From assembly GCA_026985075.1 (NCBI GenBank), contig JALSQX010000103.1, positions 1 through 64,000 on the forward strand: DNA of 64,000 nucleotides, read 5' to 3'. A program made the translations under genes and the position numbers. Origin of the DNA: Blastocatellia bacterium. GTDB taxonomy: Bacteria; Acidobacteriota; Blastocatellia; HR10; J050. The notes below the pieces were generated by a model. That model had not been told where the DNA came from. It saw only the letters and a program-made list of their open reading frames with translations, and made no database searches. This document shows, in pieces, positions 5,829 through 64,000 of the stretch (positions are counted from its first letter, which is position 1; each line of letters starts with the position of its first letter).

Positions 5829-7828
5829 GCAATCTTTTCGATCTCCACGCGGGCATCATTGTAACAGGCTCCTCCTCCGACCTCGTTGACATGAGGGGGA
5901 CAAAGCGCCGTGGCCGTGAAGCCGTTCAGGGACGATTTTCGCCAAGCGCCTTTGGGCATAGAAACGACGCCCGCTCGCACCCGCTGGCTCACTTCGGCCC
6001 GGCAGACGACCTCGCCGAACTCATTGAACACGCGGACGACGTCCCCCTCGTTGATCCCTCTGGCCGAAGCGTCGACCGGATTCAGGGTCACGCACAATTC
6101 GGGATAATTGAACTCGCCCAACGTGCTGCTGATCATCCTGGCATTGGCCGGACTGACCAGGGCGAGGGGAAACTGAGAGTTATCGACCGGCTGATACCGG
6201 TATGGCTCTCCCCCCAACGCCGATGGGGCGAGATGAATCTTCCCATCGGGCGTTCCGGGAAAGACCGTTCCGAATTGAATGGGTGTCTCTCCGGGAAAAT
6301 CAAAACGATGAGGGCGACCAGCAAACAAGACGCTGGGATCGACCGGGCGGCCACAGATGGAGAGAGCGGCAGCCACCTTTTTCATGCAGGTCTCCGTATC
6401 CCAGGTGAACGGTTCCTCGTCCCAACCCATCGCTCGTCCGAGGAGAGCGAACACCTCCTCATTCGGTTTCGCCTCGCCACGAGGAGCGATGACCGGCTGC
6501 ACGCCACCCACCGTATAGCTTCCATACGCTTTCTTGATCTCCCACTGCTCGAGGAACGTCGTCGCCGGCAGGAGAATATCAGCGTACCGGGCCGTGTCAG
6601 TCATGACCTGCTCGAAGACGACGGTGAACAGATCCTCGCGCGCCAGACCGCGGAGCACGGCACGCTGATCGGGCGCCGTCACGGCGGGATTGCAATTGTA
6701 CACGAACAACGCCTTGATGGGAGGTCGCGCATCTCCACATAAAACGGCTCCCAGTCGCGTCATGTTGATCACCCGGGTGGACCAGCGATAATTTCCCAAC
6801 AGACGCGATCGGTCGTAGTGGATGGCACTGCCGTTGCTCAGCGTATACCCTCCACCGCGCATGCCGAACTTGCCGAGCAATGCGGGCATGGCCAGAATGG
6901 CGGCGACGGCCTGTCCCCCGTTGCGATTGCGCTCTAATCCCCATCCGCAACGGATGACCGCCGGCGTCGAAGCCGCATACCTTTCGGCCAGTATTCGAAT
7001 CTGGTCGGCCTCAACGCCCGCTTCCTCGGCAGCGCGATGGAGCGACCACGCCTCCGCCCGTTGAAGCAAGATCTCCACGCCCGTGGTATGTCGGTCGAGG
7101 AATGCCCAATCGAGTCGATGGGTTTCCTTCCACAAACGGATCATGGCTAATGCCACCGGTAGATCTGTGCCGGGACGAACAGGGAGATGAAGGTCCACGT
7201 GGCGAGCGGAAAAATTTTCCACCGGATCGACGACGGCCACGAATGCTCCACGACGCCTGGCCTCGCGAAGGAAGGGGACGAGATGTATGTGAGAGACCCT
7301 CGGGTTCGCCCCCCAGATGATGATGCAGCGGGCGTGACGATAATCCTCATAGGCGACGCCGGGCATCTTGCCATACATGGCCGCGGCCACCGCCGTCGTC
7401 GGCGCTGCGCAGAGCGTCCTGGCCAATCGCGAGGCGCCGAGTTTGGCAAAATACAGCTCATCGATGAACCGTTCACCGAGCAATCCGTTCGATCCTCCAT
7501 AGTGATAAGGGAGAATAGCCTCCCCGCCCCATCGCGCGATGATGTCTCGGAATCGATCAGTGATCGTGGCGATGGCTTCATCCCAGGTGATGCGCTCAAA
7601 CTGGCCGGAGCCTTTGGCTCCCCGACGCCGCATGGGATAGAGGAGGCGATCGGCATGATAGACGCGACGATCGAATCGGGACACTTTGCCGCAGATGAAA
7701 CCGTTCGTCGTCCGATGATGGCGCGTCCCGCCGATGCGTTGAATCCTCCCCGTATCCACGACGACTTCGAGGGAACAGGTATCGGGGCAATCCATGGTAC
7801 ACGTGGTGGAGATGATGTTCACAGTCAT
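5825..7828 (-). CDS. molybdopterin-dependent oxidoreductase (DMSO reductase superfamily)
   Basis: A 667-residue catalytic subunit of the Mo/W-bis-MGD family. An N-terminal [4Fe-4S] site is visible as Cys10, Cys14, Cys18 and Cys46. The likely metal ligand is Cys140 in ARTLCAAPTTAV, the position occupied by Sec, Cys or Ser across the family. Further on come GANPRVSHIH, the molybdopterin-binding YNCNPAVTAPDQ and DILLPATTFLEQ, and a C-terminal molydopterin-binding domain starting near residue 545. There is no Tat signal, so it is cytoplasmic. No Fe-S beta or membrane subunit gene is adjacent; the downstream neighbour is an anion carrier. The substrate is unknown; formate, thiosulfate or polysulfide-like reactions are possible. 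Confidence 0.9.
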   Translation of the reverse strand: MTVNIISTTCTMDCPDTCSLEVVVDTGRIQRIGGTRHHRTTNGFICGKVSRFDRRVYHADRLLYPMRRRGAKGSGQFERITWDEAIATITDRFRDIIARWGGEAILPYHYGGSNGLLGERFIDELYFAKLGASRLARTLCAAPTTAVAAAMYGKMPGVAYEDYRHARCIIIWGANPRVSHIHLVPFLREARRRGAFVAVVDPVENFSARHVDLHLPVRPGTDLPVALAMIRLWKETHRLDWAFLDRHTTGVEILLQRAEAWSLHRAAEEAGVEADQIRILAERYAASTPAVIRCGWGLERNRNGGQAVAAILAMPALLGKFGMRGGGYTLSNGSAIHYDRSRLLGNYRWSTRVINMTRLGAVLCGDARPPIKALFVYNCNPAVTAPDQRAVLRGLAREDLFTVVFEQVMTDTARYADILLPATTFLEQWEIKKAYGSYTVGGVQPVIAPRGEAKPNEEVFALLGRAMGWDEEPFTWDTETCMKKVAAALSICGRPVDPSVLFAGRPHRFDFPGETPIQFGTVFPGTPDGKIHLAPSALGGEPYRYQPVDNSQFPLALVSPANARMISSTLGEFNYPELCVTLNPVDASARGINEGDVVRVFNEFGEVVCRAEVSQRVRAGVVSMPKGAWRKSSLNGFTATALCPPHVNEVGGGACYNDARVEIEKIA

Positions 7829-57645: not shown

Positions 57646-59670
57646 TCAGATGAGACCGAAGAAGGGATGCGGCGGATGAGGCACCTTATTCTTCGTGGAT
57701 GCGCCTTCCCGATTCTCCATCCTCGATTGATCCAGCGCCCGGCGCACGGCTTGGGCCAGTTCTCGGATCTGGTAGGGTTTTCTCACCAGTCCACACACGC
57801 CTGATTGAAGTAATTCTCTGACCAATGACTGCGACGTATCATATCCCGAAGCCAGAATCGCCTTCACTCCAGGATCGATGCGCCGTAATTCCCTGAACGT
57901 CTCCCGCCCTCCCAGCTTGGGCATCACGACATCCAGAATGACGAGAGCGATTTCGCTTTGGTGGTCTCGATAGGTGGCGATGGCCTCCAACCCATTTTGA
58001 GCGGTGAGGACCTGATAACCATAATGTTCCAGAGCCGCCCGAGCCAGTTCGAGCACCGTCGGCTCATCCTCGACCAGCAGAATGGTCTCCGATCCCCCTT
58101 TCACATCAACCGAAGGCGCTCGCTCCACCTGGGCCGGTTTTTCCACTAACGGAAAGTAAAGGGCAATGGTCGTTCCTCGCCCGACCTCACTATCCACCTC
58201 CACTGCCCCTCCGTGGTTCTTGACGATCCCATAGACGACGGGTAAGCCTAATCCCGTCCCTTTCCCCGCCTCCTTGGTCGTGAAGAAGGGATCGAAGATG
58301 CGCCTTTGAATGTCCGGAGGAATCCCCACGCCCGTATCGCTCACTCGCAGGCGAACGTAATCGCCCGGTCGGAGATCGGGATGAGCGCGACAAAACGACT
58401 CATCGAGGTTGACCCGTGCCGTTTCAATGCGCAAGCGCCCCCCTTCGGGCATGGCATCGCGAGCATTGACCACCAGATTCATGACCACTTGTTGAAGCTG
58501 CGTGGGATCGGCTTCGACCGCCAGATCCTCGGCCGCCAGGTGCATCTCCACTTCGATGTTCTCCGGAATCATGCGTTGCAGCAACTTGCCGATCTCCTTC
58601 AACAAGGGATGCAGTAACAACCGCCGTTGTCGACTCGTTCCTTCGCGACTGAAGGTGAGCAATTGCTGAACCACATCGGCCGCTCGTTGGCTGAGCACTT
58701 CGATCTGCTGCAGATGCTCATAAAACCGATCCCCCTGACTCGCCTCGCGCAGCAGCAGTTGCGTATACCCCAGAATCGCCGTCAGCATATTGTTGAAATC
58801 ATGAGCGATTCCTCCCACCAACGTGCCTAAACTCTCCAGCTTCTGAGCCTGGAGCAATTGTGCTTCGAGTTTCTTCTCCGCACTGATATCGCGAGCCGTC
58901 GCCCAATACCCCTGATACGCTCCCTGACGATCGCGCACGCCGACCATATTGAGGCGCACCGGAATGCGATGCCCATCGCTACACACCAACTCCAGCTCCA
59001 CGCTCCCCGCTTCTCCCCGCTCCCGACACTGCTCCTCCCGAGCCGATAAGCGGCGGCGATGTTCGGGAGCGACCAGCTCCGCAAACCGCATCTCACCCAG
59101 AATCCCCTCACGACGACACCCCAACCACTCCAGGAGAGTGGCATTCATCTCCGTGACCACTCCTTCGGCATTGACGGTGAAATATCCGTCGGGAGCTCGG
59201 TCGTAGAGGTCCCGATAGCGAGCCTCGGCCTCTTGCCGCTCAATGGCGTGCCGAATGACGCGCGCCAGAGAATGACCGTCCAGATCCGACTTGAGCAGAT
59301 ACTCCTGAACGCCTTCCCGAATCGCTCTCACCCTCCCGAGCTGATGCTCTTCTTCGCTCAACACGACGATGGGCACTCCGGGGGCCACAGCGTGGAGGCG
59401 CGCGATCAGATCAATATCCGAATCCCCGGCAGGCGAAACATCCAGCAGGATGAGATCCACCACCTCTTCGGCTAATCGGTTCACCGCTTCTTCGATCTCT
59501 CGCACGTGCACCACCTCTCCTCGTACCAGCGGCGACTCGGCCACCGCTTTGCTGATCATCCCAGCAATGGCAGCATCATCTTCAATCAACATCATCCTGA
59601 GTCGCGAAGAGTGACGCGCCATCGGCTCCATGTTTTCTACGTTATTGCTCCCCTTGGATTTGTCGTTCAT
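57646..59670 (-). CDS. hybrid histidine kinase (REC-PAS-HK-REC)
   Basis: About 674 residues from ATG 59670, which has AAGGAG upstream. Order: N-terminal receiver (about 25-145; MLIEDDAA, LILLDVSP), PAS (about 165-275; LYDRAPDGYFTVNAEGVV), kinase core with GGIAHDFNNMLTAILGYTQ (phospho-acceptor His), the N-box MNLVVNARDAMPEGG, G-boxes SDTGVGIPP and GKGTGLGL, and a C-terminal receiver (about 545-665; LVEDEPTV, VILDVVMP, VRKPY). No membrane helix is seen, so it senses cytoplasmic signals or is driven by another kinase through the N-terminal receiver. No separate output regulator is adjacent. Confidence 0.95.
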   Translation of the reverse strand: MNDKSKGSNNVENMEPMARHSSRLRMMLIEDDAAIAGMISKAVAESPLVRGEVVHVREIEEAVNRLAEEVVDLILLDVSPAGDSDIDLIARLHAVAPGVPIVVLSEEEHQLGRVRAIREGVQEYLLKSDLDGHSLARVIRHAIERQEAEARYRDLYDRAPDGYFTVNAEGVVTEMNATLLEWLGCRREGILGEMRFAELVAPEHRRRLSAREEQCRERGEAGSVELELVCSDGHRIPVRLNMVGVRDRQGAYQGYWATARDISAEKKLEAQLLQAQKLESLGTLVGGIAHDFNNMLTAILGYTQLLLREASQGDRFYEHLQQIEVLSQRAADVVQQLLTFSREGTSRQRRLLLHPLLKEIGKLLQRMIPENIEVEMHLAAEDLAVEADPTQLQQVVMNLVVNARDAMPEGGRLRIETARVNLDESFCRAHPDLRPGDYVRLRVSDTGVGIPPDIQRRIFDPFFTTKEAGKGTGLGLPVVYGIVKNHGGAVEVDSEVGRGTTIALYFPLVEKPAQVERAPSVDVKGGSETILLVEDEPTVLELARAALEHYGYQVLTAQNGLEAIATYRDHQSEIALVILDVVMPKLGGRETFRELRRIDPGVKAILASGYDTSQSLVRELLQSGVCGLVRKPYQIRELAQAVRRALDQSRMENREGASTKNKVPHPPHPFFGLI

Positions 59671-59781
59671 AAGACCACTCGCTCCTTCCGTCTCACCGGG
59701 AGACGAATTCAACGGAGTCCGGCAGTGACGCGCTTCACATACTGGCACCACCCGTCATTTACACTTAACAACACCAGTACA

Positions 59782-59859
59782 TTGACTTCACCTCTCCCAC
59801 TGTTTAAGTTTCATAACTCAGCGAGAACTTGGGTGTAAAAAATTTCCGAGGCGAAATTT
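59782..59859 (+). promoter_or_regulatory. AT-rich upstream region of the small exported peptide, with dyad
   Basis: The 380-bp gap 59671-60050 is AT-rich compared with its surroundings and holds no other gene. A possible plus-strand promoter is TTGACT (59782-59787), 17 bp, TAAGTT (59805-59810). Downstream lies a dyad, AAATTTC (59840-59846) and GAAATTT (59853-59859), with the 6-bp centre CGAGGC. It could be an operator for the peptide gene or the kinase gene. TATATT (59883-59888) is another -10 candidate. Confidence 0.45.
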
Positions 59860-60050
59860 CAATTTCCCAACTAAAAGATCGATATATTGTGAAACTCACA
59901 TTGATGGAGAAGGGGTGACCCTACTCTCTATCCTGAAAATTGGATCGGATGTCGCGACTGACGCCGGTCGCCGGCACAATGAGGTGCCAAAGTGCTGATG
60001 CGTCGGCCGACGCAGCGCGACGCCGAAATCCCAGCATCGAGGAGGATACT

Positions 60051-60242
60051 ATGTTCGCGATTAAATGGCTCTTGACCATCGCGCTTCTGAGCTCACTACT
60101 CTCCACGCCCGCCTGGACGCCCCTGTTCGGCGATAACGATAATCCCTCGGGCCAGAATCAAGGTCAACAACTCCTGGGAGACGGGATAGACGCTGCGTGC
60201 TGTTATCTTCGCGCGGATTGCTGCCGCAGACCTCTGCCATAG
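60051..60242 (+). CDS. small exported Cys-rich peptide (63 aa)
   Basis: A 63-residue product with a strong ribosome-binding site (GAGGAGG, 60039-60045) 5 bp before ATG 60051. The first 20-odd residues, MFAIKWLLTIALLSSLLS, form a textbook signal peptide, followed by a Pro/Ala/Trp cleavage region. The mature part is polar (GDNDNPSGQNQGQQ) and ends in CCYLRADCC, two Cys pairs five residues apart, then RRPLP. Such spacing suits disulfide formation or metal binding. No homology is recognised. It is convergent with the CHAT protease gene, 27 bp away, and may be its substrate or partner, which is inference from position. Confidence 0.7.
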   Translation: MFAIKWLLTIALLSSLLSTPAWTPLFGDNDNPSGQNQGQQLLGDGIDAACCYLRADCCRRPLP

Positions 60243-60254
60243 AGCTTCGCCCGA

Positions 60255-60276
60255 GAGATAGCATGCATCCTATCTC
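60255..60276. other. inverted repeat between convergent peptide and CHAT genes
   Basis: GAGATAG (60255-60261) and CTATCTC (60270-60276) can form a 7-bp stem with an 8-nt loop. It overlaps the stop codon of the CHAT gene and lies 13 bp after the peptide stop. No U-tract follows on either strand, so intrinsic termination is unproven. It might slow polymerase in both directions or be a protein site. Confidence 0.4.
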
Positions 60277-63200
60277 GCCACTCCCAGAGCGTCATCGGGA
60301 GGGCCGACGAGCACGAACGGCGCCCAGAAGAAGGGAGCCGCGCCCCGGCGAAGGACGTCGAGCTTCGCCCACTGGAGGGCGCGAGGGACCGATTGTCTTT
60401 GCATCAACAAGCGTCGATAAAAAGAGATCATCAGTTGACGGGTCGATTCATCTTCGACGCTCCATAGAGAGGCGCAGATATCTCGCGCGCCGGCCAGCAG
60501 GAACGCCCGGCTGAGGCCGATGATGCCCTCGGCACCAGTCGTCTCGCCACCGCCCGTCTCACAGGCGCTGAGCACGACAAGATCGGCAGTCAATCGCAAT
60601 CGCTCGATCTCGGCGGCGGTGAGCAATCCATCATCGTCGGGCGGCTCGTCGCCCAGAGTGAGGATGATGCCGGAGAAATCGCCCTCCACGGGATCGGCTA
60701 CGGCGTGAGTGGCGAAGTGGATCAACCGATAGGCGCCGAGATCGTCTGACTTGAGATTGCGCTCGCTGGCCTGGAAGCCGAGCCAGACTCTGGCCTGCCA
60801 CCGGGCCCGCTCGGCCAGTTCGGCGATGCTGAGCACTTCCTTGCGGGTGGCCGGAAGTCGATAGACTCCCGAACGGAGGCGCGGCTCCCGGAGCCTGGCC
60901 ACTTCCGATTCTCGTTCTTCGGACGATTGGTGCCGTCCGGCCAATCGCGGATCGCGCTCGCTGAACACGGGATCGCCGATCAGGAGCAATCTCTTCACTC
61001 TGGCGGATGCCGCGATCATCGTTCGCTCCCGGCGCTCCACTTCGGCCAGGACCGAAATCGATGGAGCATAACTGATGGCGTGATCATGCACGAGATAGCG
61101 AAGCCGATTGAAGTTCCCGGCATCTTCGGGCGCCGAGACGACCAGACTCTCGAAGGCCAACTGGTAGAGCGATTCGTCGGGCACAATGACGAGATCGTAT
61201 CCGCGAATGACGCGCGCCGCCGGTCGGACGAGTAGATCGTAGAGGCGGTGAGCCACTCGCGCGTACTCCCTGACCAACTTCTCGGTCGGCTCACGCGGCT
61301 TCAGTTGACGCCCGATGGCCGCTCGCCACTCGGTCACCGCCTTGCCGATGGCGTCCCACCCGGCGAGCTTGAAGAGATGAGCCTCATCTCGCCGAAGGAC
61401 GATCAAGAAACTCTCTCGAGGACCGAGTTGATAGAAGAGGATGGCCGTCCGGGGATGGGTGCCCAGGAATCGCTCTCGAACTTCGCGGGCGGTGAGCGGC
61501 GAGAGCAAGGCAGCATCATAGCGATTCTTGGCCAGGTGACGCAGCCGGGCATCGAGCCGCATGCGAGCGGCCACCAGTCGGGCGCGCTCGCGCTCCAACT
61601 GCTGGACGGTGAGCGGATCGAGATTTCCCCGAGCCTTCAAAAACACCAGTCGCCGACCGAGCGTGGAGATGCGTTTCAACAGATCGCGCTCCCGCCCCAG
61701 CAATCGGGCATCGACGATAGATGCCCGCTCCGCGTTGGAAGTCACCAGTTGATGAAGCAATGCCAGGCAGCGACTCCGCTCGGCGAAATCGAACGCCTGT
61801 TCGGCGTATTCTCGATTCGAGTGTCGCTCGCTCAAAGCATGCAGGTTTCTGATGATTTGCGTGGAGACAGCCTTGGATTGAGACAAGTAGTGCTGGCGAA
61901 GTTCTTCGACCGATTCTCGCGCCCAGGCCGCTTCGGTGACCTGCAAGGCTTCCAGGGCGAGCTGAAGGGCCGCCTCGTGATTCCCTCGCAACATCTCTCC
62001 CTGCGCCTGGAGCTGGAGCGCTCTCCGTCGCGGATTGGGATCTTCATCGTCGGGACGGGTTAATGCCACCGCCTGCCGCGCCGATCGGATCATGCCGTCT
62101 ACGTCTTTCCGACGAAAATACTCCAGGCTCATGAGGGTGAGGGCGGCGACTTCCTGATCGCGATATCCCAGTCGATGAGCCATGTCGCGCGCCTGTTGCA
62201 TCAATGCGAATCCTTCCTCTGGACGACGAGATACCATATAAGCAACGGCCAGCGCTTGAATGGCTTTCAATGTCAGGACAGGCGCGATGCCCGCGCGCAG
62301 GTCATAGGCTTTATGTGCGTATTCCAGCGCCTTCTCTCGATCCTGCAACAGTCGAAATTCGCTCAACGTGGTATACAATTGCGCGGCGGCACTCGATTGT
62401 TCGAACGACCGGAAGTAATCAGCGGCTTTGCGATAGTAGGTGGCGGCCAGTTCGGCGCGATCGATGTACCGATAGAGATCGCCGAGTTCGATGGAGGTGA
62501 CGGCTTCGGCCCAGTCGGCAGCCCACAGTTTCCGGCTCATCTCCAGAGCCCGTTCCAATTGATCGACGGCTCGATCGTAGCGGCGACGCTCCCTGAGCAG
62601 GATACCGCGTTCCAGCGCCACCGCCCATCGACCGTATGAGAAGTCCGCTCGTTGAGCGGCGGCGAGACTTCGGGCGTAATACGTTTCGGCCCGCTTCCAT
62701 TGTCGGTGCTGGCGGAAGTATCTTCCCAGGGCCAGATTGAGCCAACTCATGGCGCGCCAGTTCTGCTCTCGCTCGGCCCAGGCCATGCCCTGATCATAAT
62801 AGGCCATGGCCGATGTTTCGTTCCACGCCGTCAGTTGGTCTTCCTCTTCGATACTCAACCAATAGGTTCCATACTGATCGGCGTTGAGGCCACAGACGAC
62901 GATCGTATACCGTCCGGATACCGGTAGTGTGGTGGAAATTCGGGCATTAAAAAATCCCCCACTATCGTCGCTCCAGGCGATTTGTCGGCCTGTGGGATCG
63001 ATGAGGATGAGATAGGGATCGAACTCGTAAGATTGAGCTATGATGGTGACCGTCTGACCGGCTCGGGCATTCAACGCCCAGTACTGCTCGCGACCATAGG
63101 GAGCGTTTCTCCGAATGGGATTGGTTTGGTGAAGGACTTGTCGATGGCGTTCGCCGAAGCGGGCCTGGTGATAAATGGGCGAGAAACGGCAACCGAACGG

Positions 63201-63317
63201 GGCGGAGGCCAGCACTAATCCAACCAACCCCACGATGACGAAGCCAGACCGCCACCCCTCGAGCCTCGCGGGAGAATATGCCCGCCATCGAGACGACCGT
63301 TTGTGGTCCTGGCTCAC
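60270..63317 (-). CDS. envelope-associated PPC-TPR-CHAT protease
   Basis: About 1015 residues from GTG 63317, which has AAGGAGG 9 bp upstream; a TTG at 63386 lies inside the predicted -35 box and is rejected. A hydrophobic N-terminal segment (about 25-40, ending FGC) exports or anchors it. A PPC-like beta domain follows (about 75-165; DPYLILIDPTGRQIAWSDD), then 6-8 TPR units (about 170-500), a helical linker, and a C-terminal CHAT domain (about 700-1010). The caspase-like dyad is present: His871 in HFATHAVADP and Cys919 in VVLSACETGGGE. CHAT enzymes are separase/caspase-like proteases. It is divergent from a sigma-like gene. Confidence 0.92.
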   Translation of the reverse strand: MSQDHKRSSRWRAYSPARLEGWRSGFVIVGLVGLVLASAPFGCRFSPIYHQARFGERHRQVLHQTNPIRRNAPYGREQYWALNARAGQTVTIIAQSYEFDPYLILIDPTGRQIAWSDDSGGFFNARISTTLPVSGRYTIVVCGLNADQYGTYWLSIEEEDQLTAWNETSAMAYYDQGMAWAEREQNWRAMSWLNLALGRYFRQHRQWKRAETYYARSLAAAQRADFSYGRWAVALERGILLRERRRYDRAVDQLERALEMSRKLWAADWAEAVTSIELGDLYRYIDRAELAATYYRKAADYFRSFEQSSAAAQLYTTLSEFRLLQDREKALEYAHKAYDLRAGIAPVLTLKAIQALAVAYMVSRRPEEGFALMQQARDMAHRLGYRDQEVAALTLMSLEYFRRKDVDGMIRSARQAVALTRPDDEDPNPRRRALQLQAQGEMLRGNHEAALQLALEALQVTEAAWARESVEELRQHYLSQSKAVSTQIIRNLHALSERHSNREYAEQAFDFAERSRCLALLHQLVTSNAERASIVDARLLGRERDLLKRISTLGRRLVFLKARGNLDPLTVQQLERERARLVAARMRLDARLRHLAKNRYDAALLSPLTAREVRERFLGTHPRTAILFYQLGPRESFLIVLRRDEAHLFKLAGWDAIGKAVTEWRAAIGRQLKPREPTEKLVREYARVAHRLYDLLVRPAARVIRGYDLVIVPDESLYQLAFESLVVSAPEDAGNFNRLRYLVHDHAISYAPSISVLAEVERRERTMIAASARVKRLLLIGDPVFSERDPRLAGRHQSSEERESEVARLREPRLRSGVYRLPATRKEVLSIAELAERARWQARVWLGFQASERNLKSDDLGAYRLIHFATHAVADPVEGDFSGIILTLGDEPPDDDGLLTAAEIERLRLTADLVVLSACETGGGETTGAEGIIGLSRAFLLAGARDICASLWSVEDESTRQLMISFYRRLLMQRQSVPRALQWAKLDVLRRGAAPFFWAPFVLVGPPDDALGVAR

Positions 63318-63357
63318 CGCTTCCGACCTCCTTGCTGCGCTCACCGCTGATGCTAAA

Positions 63358-63386
63358 ACAATAACAAATGTCACCTGGAATCGCAA
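63358..63386 (-). promoter_or_regulatory. promoter for the CHAT gene
   Basis: On the minus strand TTGCGA (63381-63386), 17 bp and TATTGT (63358-63363). The start would be near 63352, giving a leader of about 35 nt that contains the AAGGAGG ribosome-binding site (63327-63333). It supports GTG 63317 as start codon. Confidence 0.6.
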
Positions 63387-63486
63387 CTACCCGCTGACGG
63401 CGCGGTGCGCCGATCGGGGGTCGGTACGTTCTGACCGACTCCCAAGCGTTGGGAGAAGGCAAGCTCAGGAGCGCGAGGGGAGGGAA

Positions 63487-63634
63487 CCCCGCCGCTGGTC
63501 GGCGGGGAGCAATCCGTTGTCAGCTAGTCGAGCGGGCACGATCCTCCCGGGAAGCCCCGCCGCTCGTCGGCGGGGAGCAATCCGTTGTCAGCTAGTCGAG
63601 CGAGGGGCGGCCCACTGCAAAGCCCCGCCGCTCG
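63487..63634. repeat. 68-bp-period hairpin repeat in the CHAT/sigma intergenic region
   Basis: Two 48-bp copies (63487-63534, 63555-63602) differ at one base, and a third copy starts in register at 63623 but stops after 12 bp, so the period is exactly 68 bp. The 20-bp spacers differ. Each copy begins with a near-perfect hairpin, CCCCGCCG-CTCGT-CGGCGGGG, followed by an invariant 27-bp tail. It lies between the divergent promoters of the CHAT and sigma-like genes. It resembles a REP-type extragenic palindrome more than a CRISPR, given long repeats and short spacers. No other copy was noticed in the window. Confidence 0.85.
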
Positions 63635-63747
63635 AAGACTGGTTCCCCATCGCCACCTGCTCCGAATGGTTTGGGAGCAGTAGCGGCCAATGGTTTCTTC
63701 TCATCAGTGATTTCCACAGAGATGTTAAGCAGGTGAAAAAATGCCGG

Positions 63748-63776
63748 TTGATTGTCTCCTGACTGTATGATATTCT
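63748..63776 (+). promoter_or_regulatory. promoter for the sigma-like gene
   Basis: TTGATT (63748-63753), 17 bp and TATTCT (63771-63776); transcription would start near 63783. TATGAT at 63766-63771 is an alternative -10. It lies 35 bp upstream of the GTG start at 63811. Confidence 0.5.
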
Positions 63777-63810
63777 ACCTCTGCTTTTCATCGAGCTCGA
63801 GGCACGGAAA

Positions 63811-64000
63811 GTGAGCAGGTCGCAAAAGAGTGGGTTGAGCCCGATCAGGACATTGTCCCCCTCTGATTCTGAATCTCACATGGCGCAATACAAAGCAGAG
63901 CAGCTCTCTCGTCGGCACCTTCGTTCTCTACTCGCCTCCGCCCAGGCGGGCGATGCTGAGGCGCGAGAGCAAATTTTTTTATTTTTACACACAAGATTTT
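63811..64000 (+). CDS. RNA polymerase sigma factor-like protein, 5' part only
   Basis: A frame open to the window end, encoding at least 63 residues. GTG 63811 has GAGG 8 bp upstream; ATG 63880 is the alternative and lacks a ribosome-binding site. The segment LRSLLASAQAGDAEAREQIFLFLHTRF matches the sigma region 2 start of ECF-type factors (LL-x-xAQ-x-GD-x-xA-x-E-x-L). The rest lies outside the window, so the family is tentative. It is divergent from the CHAT gene, with hairpin repeats between them, and could control that gene or its own regulon. Confidence 0.55.
   Translation, partial: MSRSQKSGLSPIRTLSPSDSESHMAQYKAEQLSRRHLRSLLASAQAGDAEAREQIFLFLHTRF

Follow-up and report, generated by a model that had tools for sequence, protein, structure and literature searches.

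Gene organization at the locus

The stretch of DNA analysed here comprises bases 1-64000 of contig C103 (JALSQX010000103.1) from the 5.2 Mb genome of a Blastocatellia bacterium of the phylum Acidobacteriota; in what follows, "the window" means this whole stretch of 64,000 nucleotides. Near its end lie the genes for a small peptide with a cysteine-pair tail, a large protein with a CHAT domain and an extracytoplasmic function (ECF) sigma factor, and a gene for an anti-sigma factor follows beyond the window. Their features are as follows.

60051..60242, + strand: small exported or membrane-anchored peptide of 63 aa with an N-terminal hydrophobic segment and a CCx5CC tail (from family alignments, purifying selection and a phylum survey)
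60270..63317, - strand: exported PPC-TPR-CHAT protein of 1015 aa with a GTG start; H871 and C919 invariant in the subfamily
63811..64000, + strand: part of the ECF sigma factor gene within the window (5' part); the gene runs on to contig position 64461, and an alternative ATG start lies at 63880
Contig 64572-65417, beyond the window, + strand: anti-sigma gene (ZAS, transmembrane helix, TPR), following the sigma gene

The peptide and CHAT genes are convergent, and their stop codons are separated by 27 bp in the window. The peptide gene has the Shine-Dalgarno sequence GAGGAGG and encodes CCYLRADCC close to the C-terminus; the GTG start of the CHAT gene is preceded by AAGGAGG. For the sigma gene, either GTG at 63811 (216 aa) or ATG at 63880 (193 aa) may serve as the start codon. 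The completion of this gene and the anti-sigma gene came to light by following the contig past position 64000, as the original prediction from the window had advised.

Co-inheritance of the peptide and one CHAT subfamily

The peptide and CHAT genes are convergent and adjacent at all 12 loci where both lie on one contig, in two classes of Acidobacteriota, with gaps of 23-163 bp at 11 loci and of 1308 bp in G006. Contig C42 carries a CHAT paralogue, 58% identical to the CHAT gene of the window, that has its own convergent peptide of 58 aa ending in WCCERGLTCCQ, and more peptides adjoin the CHAT orthologues in G004, G007, G008, G009, G036, G006 and G161; in G005 the peptide and CHAT genes lie at separate contig ends. 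When 162 genomes of the class were searched with the peptide only, strong matches (E <1e-20) were obtained only where this CHAT subfamily occurs; the match in G161 is weak (0.006) but stands convergent beside the G161 CHAT gene. The same search in 396 genomes across the phylum recovered, through the peptide alone, three distant peptides in another class (one in G181 and two in G166), each convergent beside a CHAT gene of the same subfamily and accompanied by sigma and anti-sigma genes. An independent CHAT search of these 396 genomes returned the identical 6 genomes, with 8 CHAT genes to the 8 peptide copies; the chance of the same 6 of 396 genomes being found is about 2e-13 assuming independent genomes, which these are not fully. 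At 15 other CHAT loci (bits <420), no such peptide occurs within 2.5 kb of the sequence examined. In the sister genome G001, contig ends interrupt each of the two CHAT genes that belong to this subfamily; neither their 3' halves nor the peptides were found in that assembly. A contig scan of GTDB r220 gave matches only from the same clade, with two exact patterns that are narrow and leave room for other phyla. At L056, a CCx5CC match close to a CHAT fragment of an unrelated kind was set aside as chance, and weak peptide matches in contig C50 of G005 (with internal stops) and in G123 as noise.

Trees of the CHAT, anti-sigma and sigma proteins are congruent in their supported clades, and we consider it almost certain that peptide, CHAT protein, sigma factor and anti-sigma factor belong to one module. 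Small open reading frames of such kind are common, which would favour a chance neighbourhood of unrelated genes; that explanation is excluded, with a negligible residual probability, by the conservation across two classes, the identical phyletic pattern and the purifying selection on the peptide described below.

The original prediction had grouped four elements, namely the peptide, the CHAT protein, a sigma-like gene and hairpin repeats between the two divergent promoters. Three of these have held: the 63-aa peptide at 60051-60242, head-on to the CHAT gene, is conserved across two classes and stays next to CHAT genes in relatives, and the CHAT and sigma genes are conserved together with it. 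The grouping was incomplete as regards the membrane anti-sigma factor beyond the window, and the repeats do not belong to it (see below).

The peptide family

The peptides share one architecture, consisting of the initial Met, a [KR]W pair, a hydrophobic stretch, a low-complexity linker and the CCx5CC tail; in the alignment M1 and the CC-x5-CC motif are invariant and W6 nearly so. A Shine-Dalgarno sequence is present at all nine peptide loci compared first. Among four close relatives dN/dS is 0.08-0.30 and the changes fall mostly in third codon positions, purifying selection that argues for a real gene. The window peptide has no match in Pfam or NCBIfam, and the NCBIfam matches of two homologues lie far under the cut-offs; the peptides form a new family.

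The PPC-TPR-CHAT protein

The CHAT domain of the 1015-aa protein is recognized by PF12770 at 3.8e-60 (204 bits against a gathering cut-off of 24), a cut-off that 9 of 9 homologues also pass, and TPR_12 is found at 3.9e-10. The PPC domain is weak by sequence (E 0.056), but in the structural model the beta-sandwich at the N-terminus resembles the PPC domain of collagenase (5sv5, TM 0.80). The members of the subfamily begin with a hydrophobic segment, which is weak in G166 C287, followed by a PPC-like sandwich, TPR helices and a CHAT region. The pair H871 and C919, said to be intact in the original prediction, is invariant in 9 diverse homologues; with this catalytic His/Cys pair intact, the protein is predicted to be a cysteine protease. 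The best PDB matches of its structural model by Foldseek are, in order, the TPR-CHAT protein Csx29 (4.6e-13), DdvA (7e-10) and separase (3.6e-9).

This caspase/separase-like fold, together with a partner that is small and hydrophobic, would suit a death or defence module, in which the peptide would be a small membrane-active toxin, harmless until cut by the CHAT protein, and the sigma factor would amplify the response. Caspase-like proteases activate bacterial gasdermins, and CHAT relatives occur in defence. However, PADLOC yields no defence family apart from a generic TPR match, neither a variable recognition part nor a mobile-element context was seen, and the congruent trees of the parts fit a stably inherited module; we regard a defence role as quite improbable.

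Other CHAT proteins are numerous in the class. G012, G016 and G022 each contain about 20 strong matches to the window protein (E <1e-30), which indicates a large expansion.

The sigma factor and its putative membrane inhibitor

The gene at 63811 is, as judged from its sequence, a true ECF sigma factor, in line with the original prediction. It matches PDB ECF sigma factors at 1.2e-6 with both regions 2 and 4 covered, and scores 43.2 bits against the TIGR02937 cut-off of 42.9; Pfam sigma region 2 is found in 7 of 7 homologues and region 4 in 3.

The product of the downstream gene carries an invariant zinc motif C...HxxxCxxC (C3, H31, C35 and C38), and zf-HC2 is detected in 7 of 7 members of its family (best 1.1e-5). 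A single transmembrane helix is predicted at about residues 88-104, with positive residues on its N side, and the positive-inside rule predicts an outward-facing TPR part. This C-terminal TPR domain is modelled with high confidence (TMt 0.86-0.89 to TPR structures). The protein is accordingly annotated as a predicted ZAS-type membrane anti-sigma factor, cognate-looking, which would act as an inhibitor of the sigma factor.

The commonest gene order is sigma, anti-sigma and CHAT, with the peptide head-on to the latter; it is present in C42, G004, G007, G008, G009, G036, G161, G181 and G166 C287, and in G005 as far as the assembly reaches. The sigma/anti-sigma pair is divergent from the CHAT gene in the window, in the sister G001 and in G166 C43. 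The divergent sigma gene of the original prediction is correct for the window, but a sigma/anti-sigma/CHAT operon is what is usually seen, and divergence is a local variation that the sister species shares and that occurs separately at L103.

Promoters, repeats and neighbouring genes

The original prediction supposed that the sigma-like factor would drive expression and that the protease would process or sense the peptide in the envelope, and both ideas stay conjectural; no convincing promoter shared among the module genes was found. In 7 of 10 cases the region upstream of the peptide gene contains a GYGAAAY 7-mer resembling an ECF -35 box (for example at about 59851 and 59889 in the window). 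This motif is weak: the same count is reached in 1 of 40 shuffle sets, it was looked for post hoc, and a -10 box to go with it was not found. A housekeeping-like promoter, TTGATT-17-TATTCT, was noted by eye before the sigma gene, under the scan threshold.

The 7-mer bears on a model in which the anti-sigma factor would sense the envelope alone, with the CHAT protein and the peptide as products of the response. The CHAT protein would trim the exported peptide, and the mature CCx5CC tail, disulphide- or metal-bound, would be an external signal, an antimicrobial or a metal/redox peptide. Besides the 7-mer, the likeness of the peptide to a leader followed by a linker and a conserved Cys core, the strong Shine-Dalgarno sequence of its own convergent gene and its strict pairing with one CHAT subfamily are in favour. 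The weakness of GYGAAAY and its lack of a -10 box count against such a model, as does the fact that no linked exporter, immunity or modification gene was seen, and the CHAT/anti-sigma operon is left unexplained; we consider that the peptide is rather unlikely to be an output of this kind.

The hairpin repeats at 63482-63640 consist of two 53-nt copies, 94% identical and 68 nt apart, and part of a third. They were rejected as a part of the module: they belong to a dispersed GC-rich palindromic family with a period of about 70 nt and some 97 further matches on 17 contigs, the stretch folds no better than its shuffles (z -0.76), and the same place in the sister genome has only partial, weak repeat matches. 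Rfam contains no match to the repeat. The sigma/anti-sigma pair lies between two oppositely oriented arrays, the second at C103 65555-66087 (L009:9556-10088). An inversion between these arrays, although an attractive source of the divergent layout, was set aside, given that the sister species shows the divergence with almost no repeat present and that L103 is divergent separately. At L055 (G000:C1), about 7141-7674, an array of this repeat also immediately follows another CHAT gene of this genome (C1:29534-32026), perhaps by chance.

Among the neighbours of the module, those that could be identified encode a histidine kinase, an AAA protein and a restriction-modification pair of SfiI-like type. 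The SfiI-like restriction enzyme (PF11487, 3.9e-50) lies just past the module at L009:10552-12304 and adjoins an N6/N4 DNA methylase with a helix-turn-helix insert. A hybrid histidine kinase of HisKA-HATPase-REC architecture, whose sensor parts vary (PAS, GAF or REC), stands just past the peptide gene and divergent from it at four loci in two classes, namely 57646-59751 (- strand) in the window, L048:840-2885, L101:7818-9803 and L103:3132-5330. The kinases of the window and G181 share 48% identity over 532 aa, and a second hybrid-kinase end (L111:7596-8174) adjoins the sigma pair of G006, which lies apart from the CHAT gene there (see below). The kinase is a possible fifth member of the module.

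Proposed mechanism

The module is most likely a four-gene envelope-signalling system. It is proposed that the anti-sigma factor would hold the sigma factor at the membrane, and that the CHAT protein would be a cysteine protease at the outer face of the inner membrane. Through its TPR/PPC part it would read either the amount of peptide or the state of the peptide's cysteine tail (redox, metal or processing). The activated CHAT protein would cut the anti-sigma factor in its outward-facing TPR domain, leading to breakdown of this factor and release of the sigma factor, and the CHAT protein would thus have the peptide as its dedicated ligand or substrate. The anti-sigma TPR part, the CHAT protein and the peptide tail would share one compartment and fate, and regulated proteolysis is the simplest reading. 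The conservation of CCx5CC suggests that its disulphide or metal state may be the feature that is read.

The steps of this scheme differ in strength. Control of the anti-sigma factor by the CHAT protein is put at about an even chance, and a role of the peptide as CHAT ligand or substrate is equally balanced; the whole chain from peptide through CHAT and anti-sigma cleavage to sigma release is somewhat less probable than either. More tentative again is the idea of an extracytoplasmic caspase-like switch, in which a periplasm-facing CHAT protein, gated by a Cys-pair microprotein, would cut a membrane anti-sigma factor, and the peptide would represent a new class of redox- or metal-sensing protease ligand or substrate.

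Several observations weigh against the proteolytic scheme. The structural model of the CHAT protein reaches no more than moderate confidence (pLDDT 68, pTM 0.52), and the whole-length TM-scores of its matches are low (0.21-0.28). The N-terminal segments of the module proteins fit cleaved signals and anchors alike, and outside the cysteines the peptide has no conserved cleavage-like motif. At L113 (G003:C156) and L114 (G166:C164), more distant operons of other Acidobacteriota unite an ECF sigma factor, an anti-sigma factor with a transmembrane helix and a CHAT protein; they differ from the present module in that their CHAT and anti-sigma proteins are just distantly related and no Cys-pair peptide member was reported. 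The peptide is not needed for the link between CHAT and sigma factor in general, and the existence of these operons makes it look like an addition to an older sigma/anti-sigma/CHAT circuit.

The arrangement in G006, where the sigma/anti-sigma pair sits on a different contig from the CHAT and peptide genes, also speaks against the scheme. There the peptide-CHAT pairing is tighter than the pairing of either with the sigma pair, which suggests the CHAT protein as the probable direct partner of the peptide. That the peptide stays with the CHAT gene even under such separation would be expected if it were a structural partner of the CHAT protein (a chaperone, or a metal or disulphide donor) with no role in sigma control. 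Yet the peptide is limited to this CHAT subfamily, and the G006 genome still keeps the sigma/anti-sigma pair; a purely structural role appears improbable.

Relation to known systems

The regulated proteolysis proposed here has a close parallel in the type III-E Craspase system (Cas7-11/gRAMP, Csx29, Csx30 and CASP-sigma), which also has a TPR-CHAT protease beside an ECF sigma factor and whose Csx29 is the best structural match of the present CHAT model. Csx29 cleaves Csx30, an inhibitor of the ECF sigma factor (PMC10028731), and a TPR-CHAT protein and a sigma inhibitor are thereby known to work as a pair, though in the cytoplasm and under CRISPR control. In contrast, the present CHAT protein is exported and has a PPC domain, the inhibitor is a predicted membrane protein of ZAS-TM-TPR type, and the Cys-pair peptide is added. 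None of Cas7-11, Csx30 and Csx31 is among the neighbouring genes identified at the locus, and the present sigma factor scores 26.7 bits with the III-E RpoE-like model NF041236, under its cut-off of 100.

Systems of the DegS-RseA-sigmaE and RsiW types likewise combine a membrane anti-sigma factor, having cytoplasmic sigma-binding and outward parts, with an envelope protease. The protease there is a PDZ serine protease, whereas here it is a caspase/separase-like CHAT protein accompanied by a dedicated peptide gene, and cleavage is inferred. DdvA of Myxococcus xanthus (PDB 8rot/8rw5, with DdvS) is a transmembrane anti-sigma factor that matches the CHAT model (Foldseek 7e-10), and the signal inactivating it is unknown (PMC4374960). 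It has its sigma-binding and outward parts in one polypeptide, whereas the CHAT and anti-sigma proteins are here encoded by separate genes; the fold similarity is limited to the CHAT protein, with a low global TM (0.21-0.25) and no sequence match. Known systems with an ECF sigma factor near caspase-like proteins have other sensor or adaptor domains, no exported CHAT protein and no such peptide.

In the literature searched, nothing links the CHAT domain with zf-HC2 or with Acidobacteria, and the Craspase work alone combines a CHAT domain, an ECF sigma factor and an anti-sigma factor. The view of the original prediction that no system with these parts has been described agrees with this search. 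Protease-controlled ECF sigma factors are a known kind of system, and the present composition is new.

Substrates of exported CHAT proteins are seemingly undescribed in the same literature, and the gene partners found here point to two candidate targets: the anti-sigma factor in the membrane and the microprotein matched to the CHAT protein. The module is compact enough to be rebuilt in Escherichia coli. If the proposed scheme is true, the caspase/separase fold would be tied to envelope signalling, and the Craspase circuit of TPR-CHAT protease, sigma inhibitor and sigma factor may derive from an older, non-CRISPR one.

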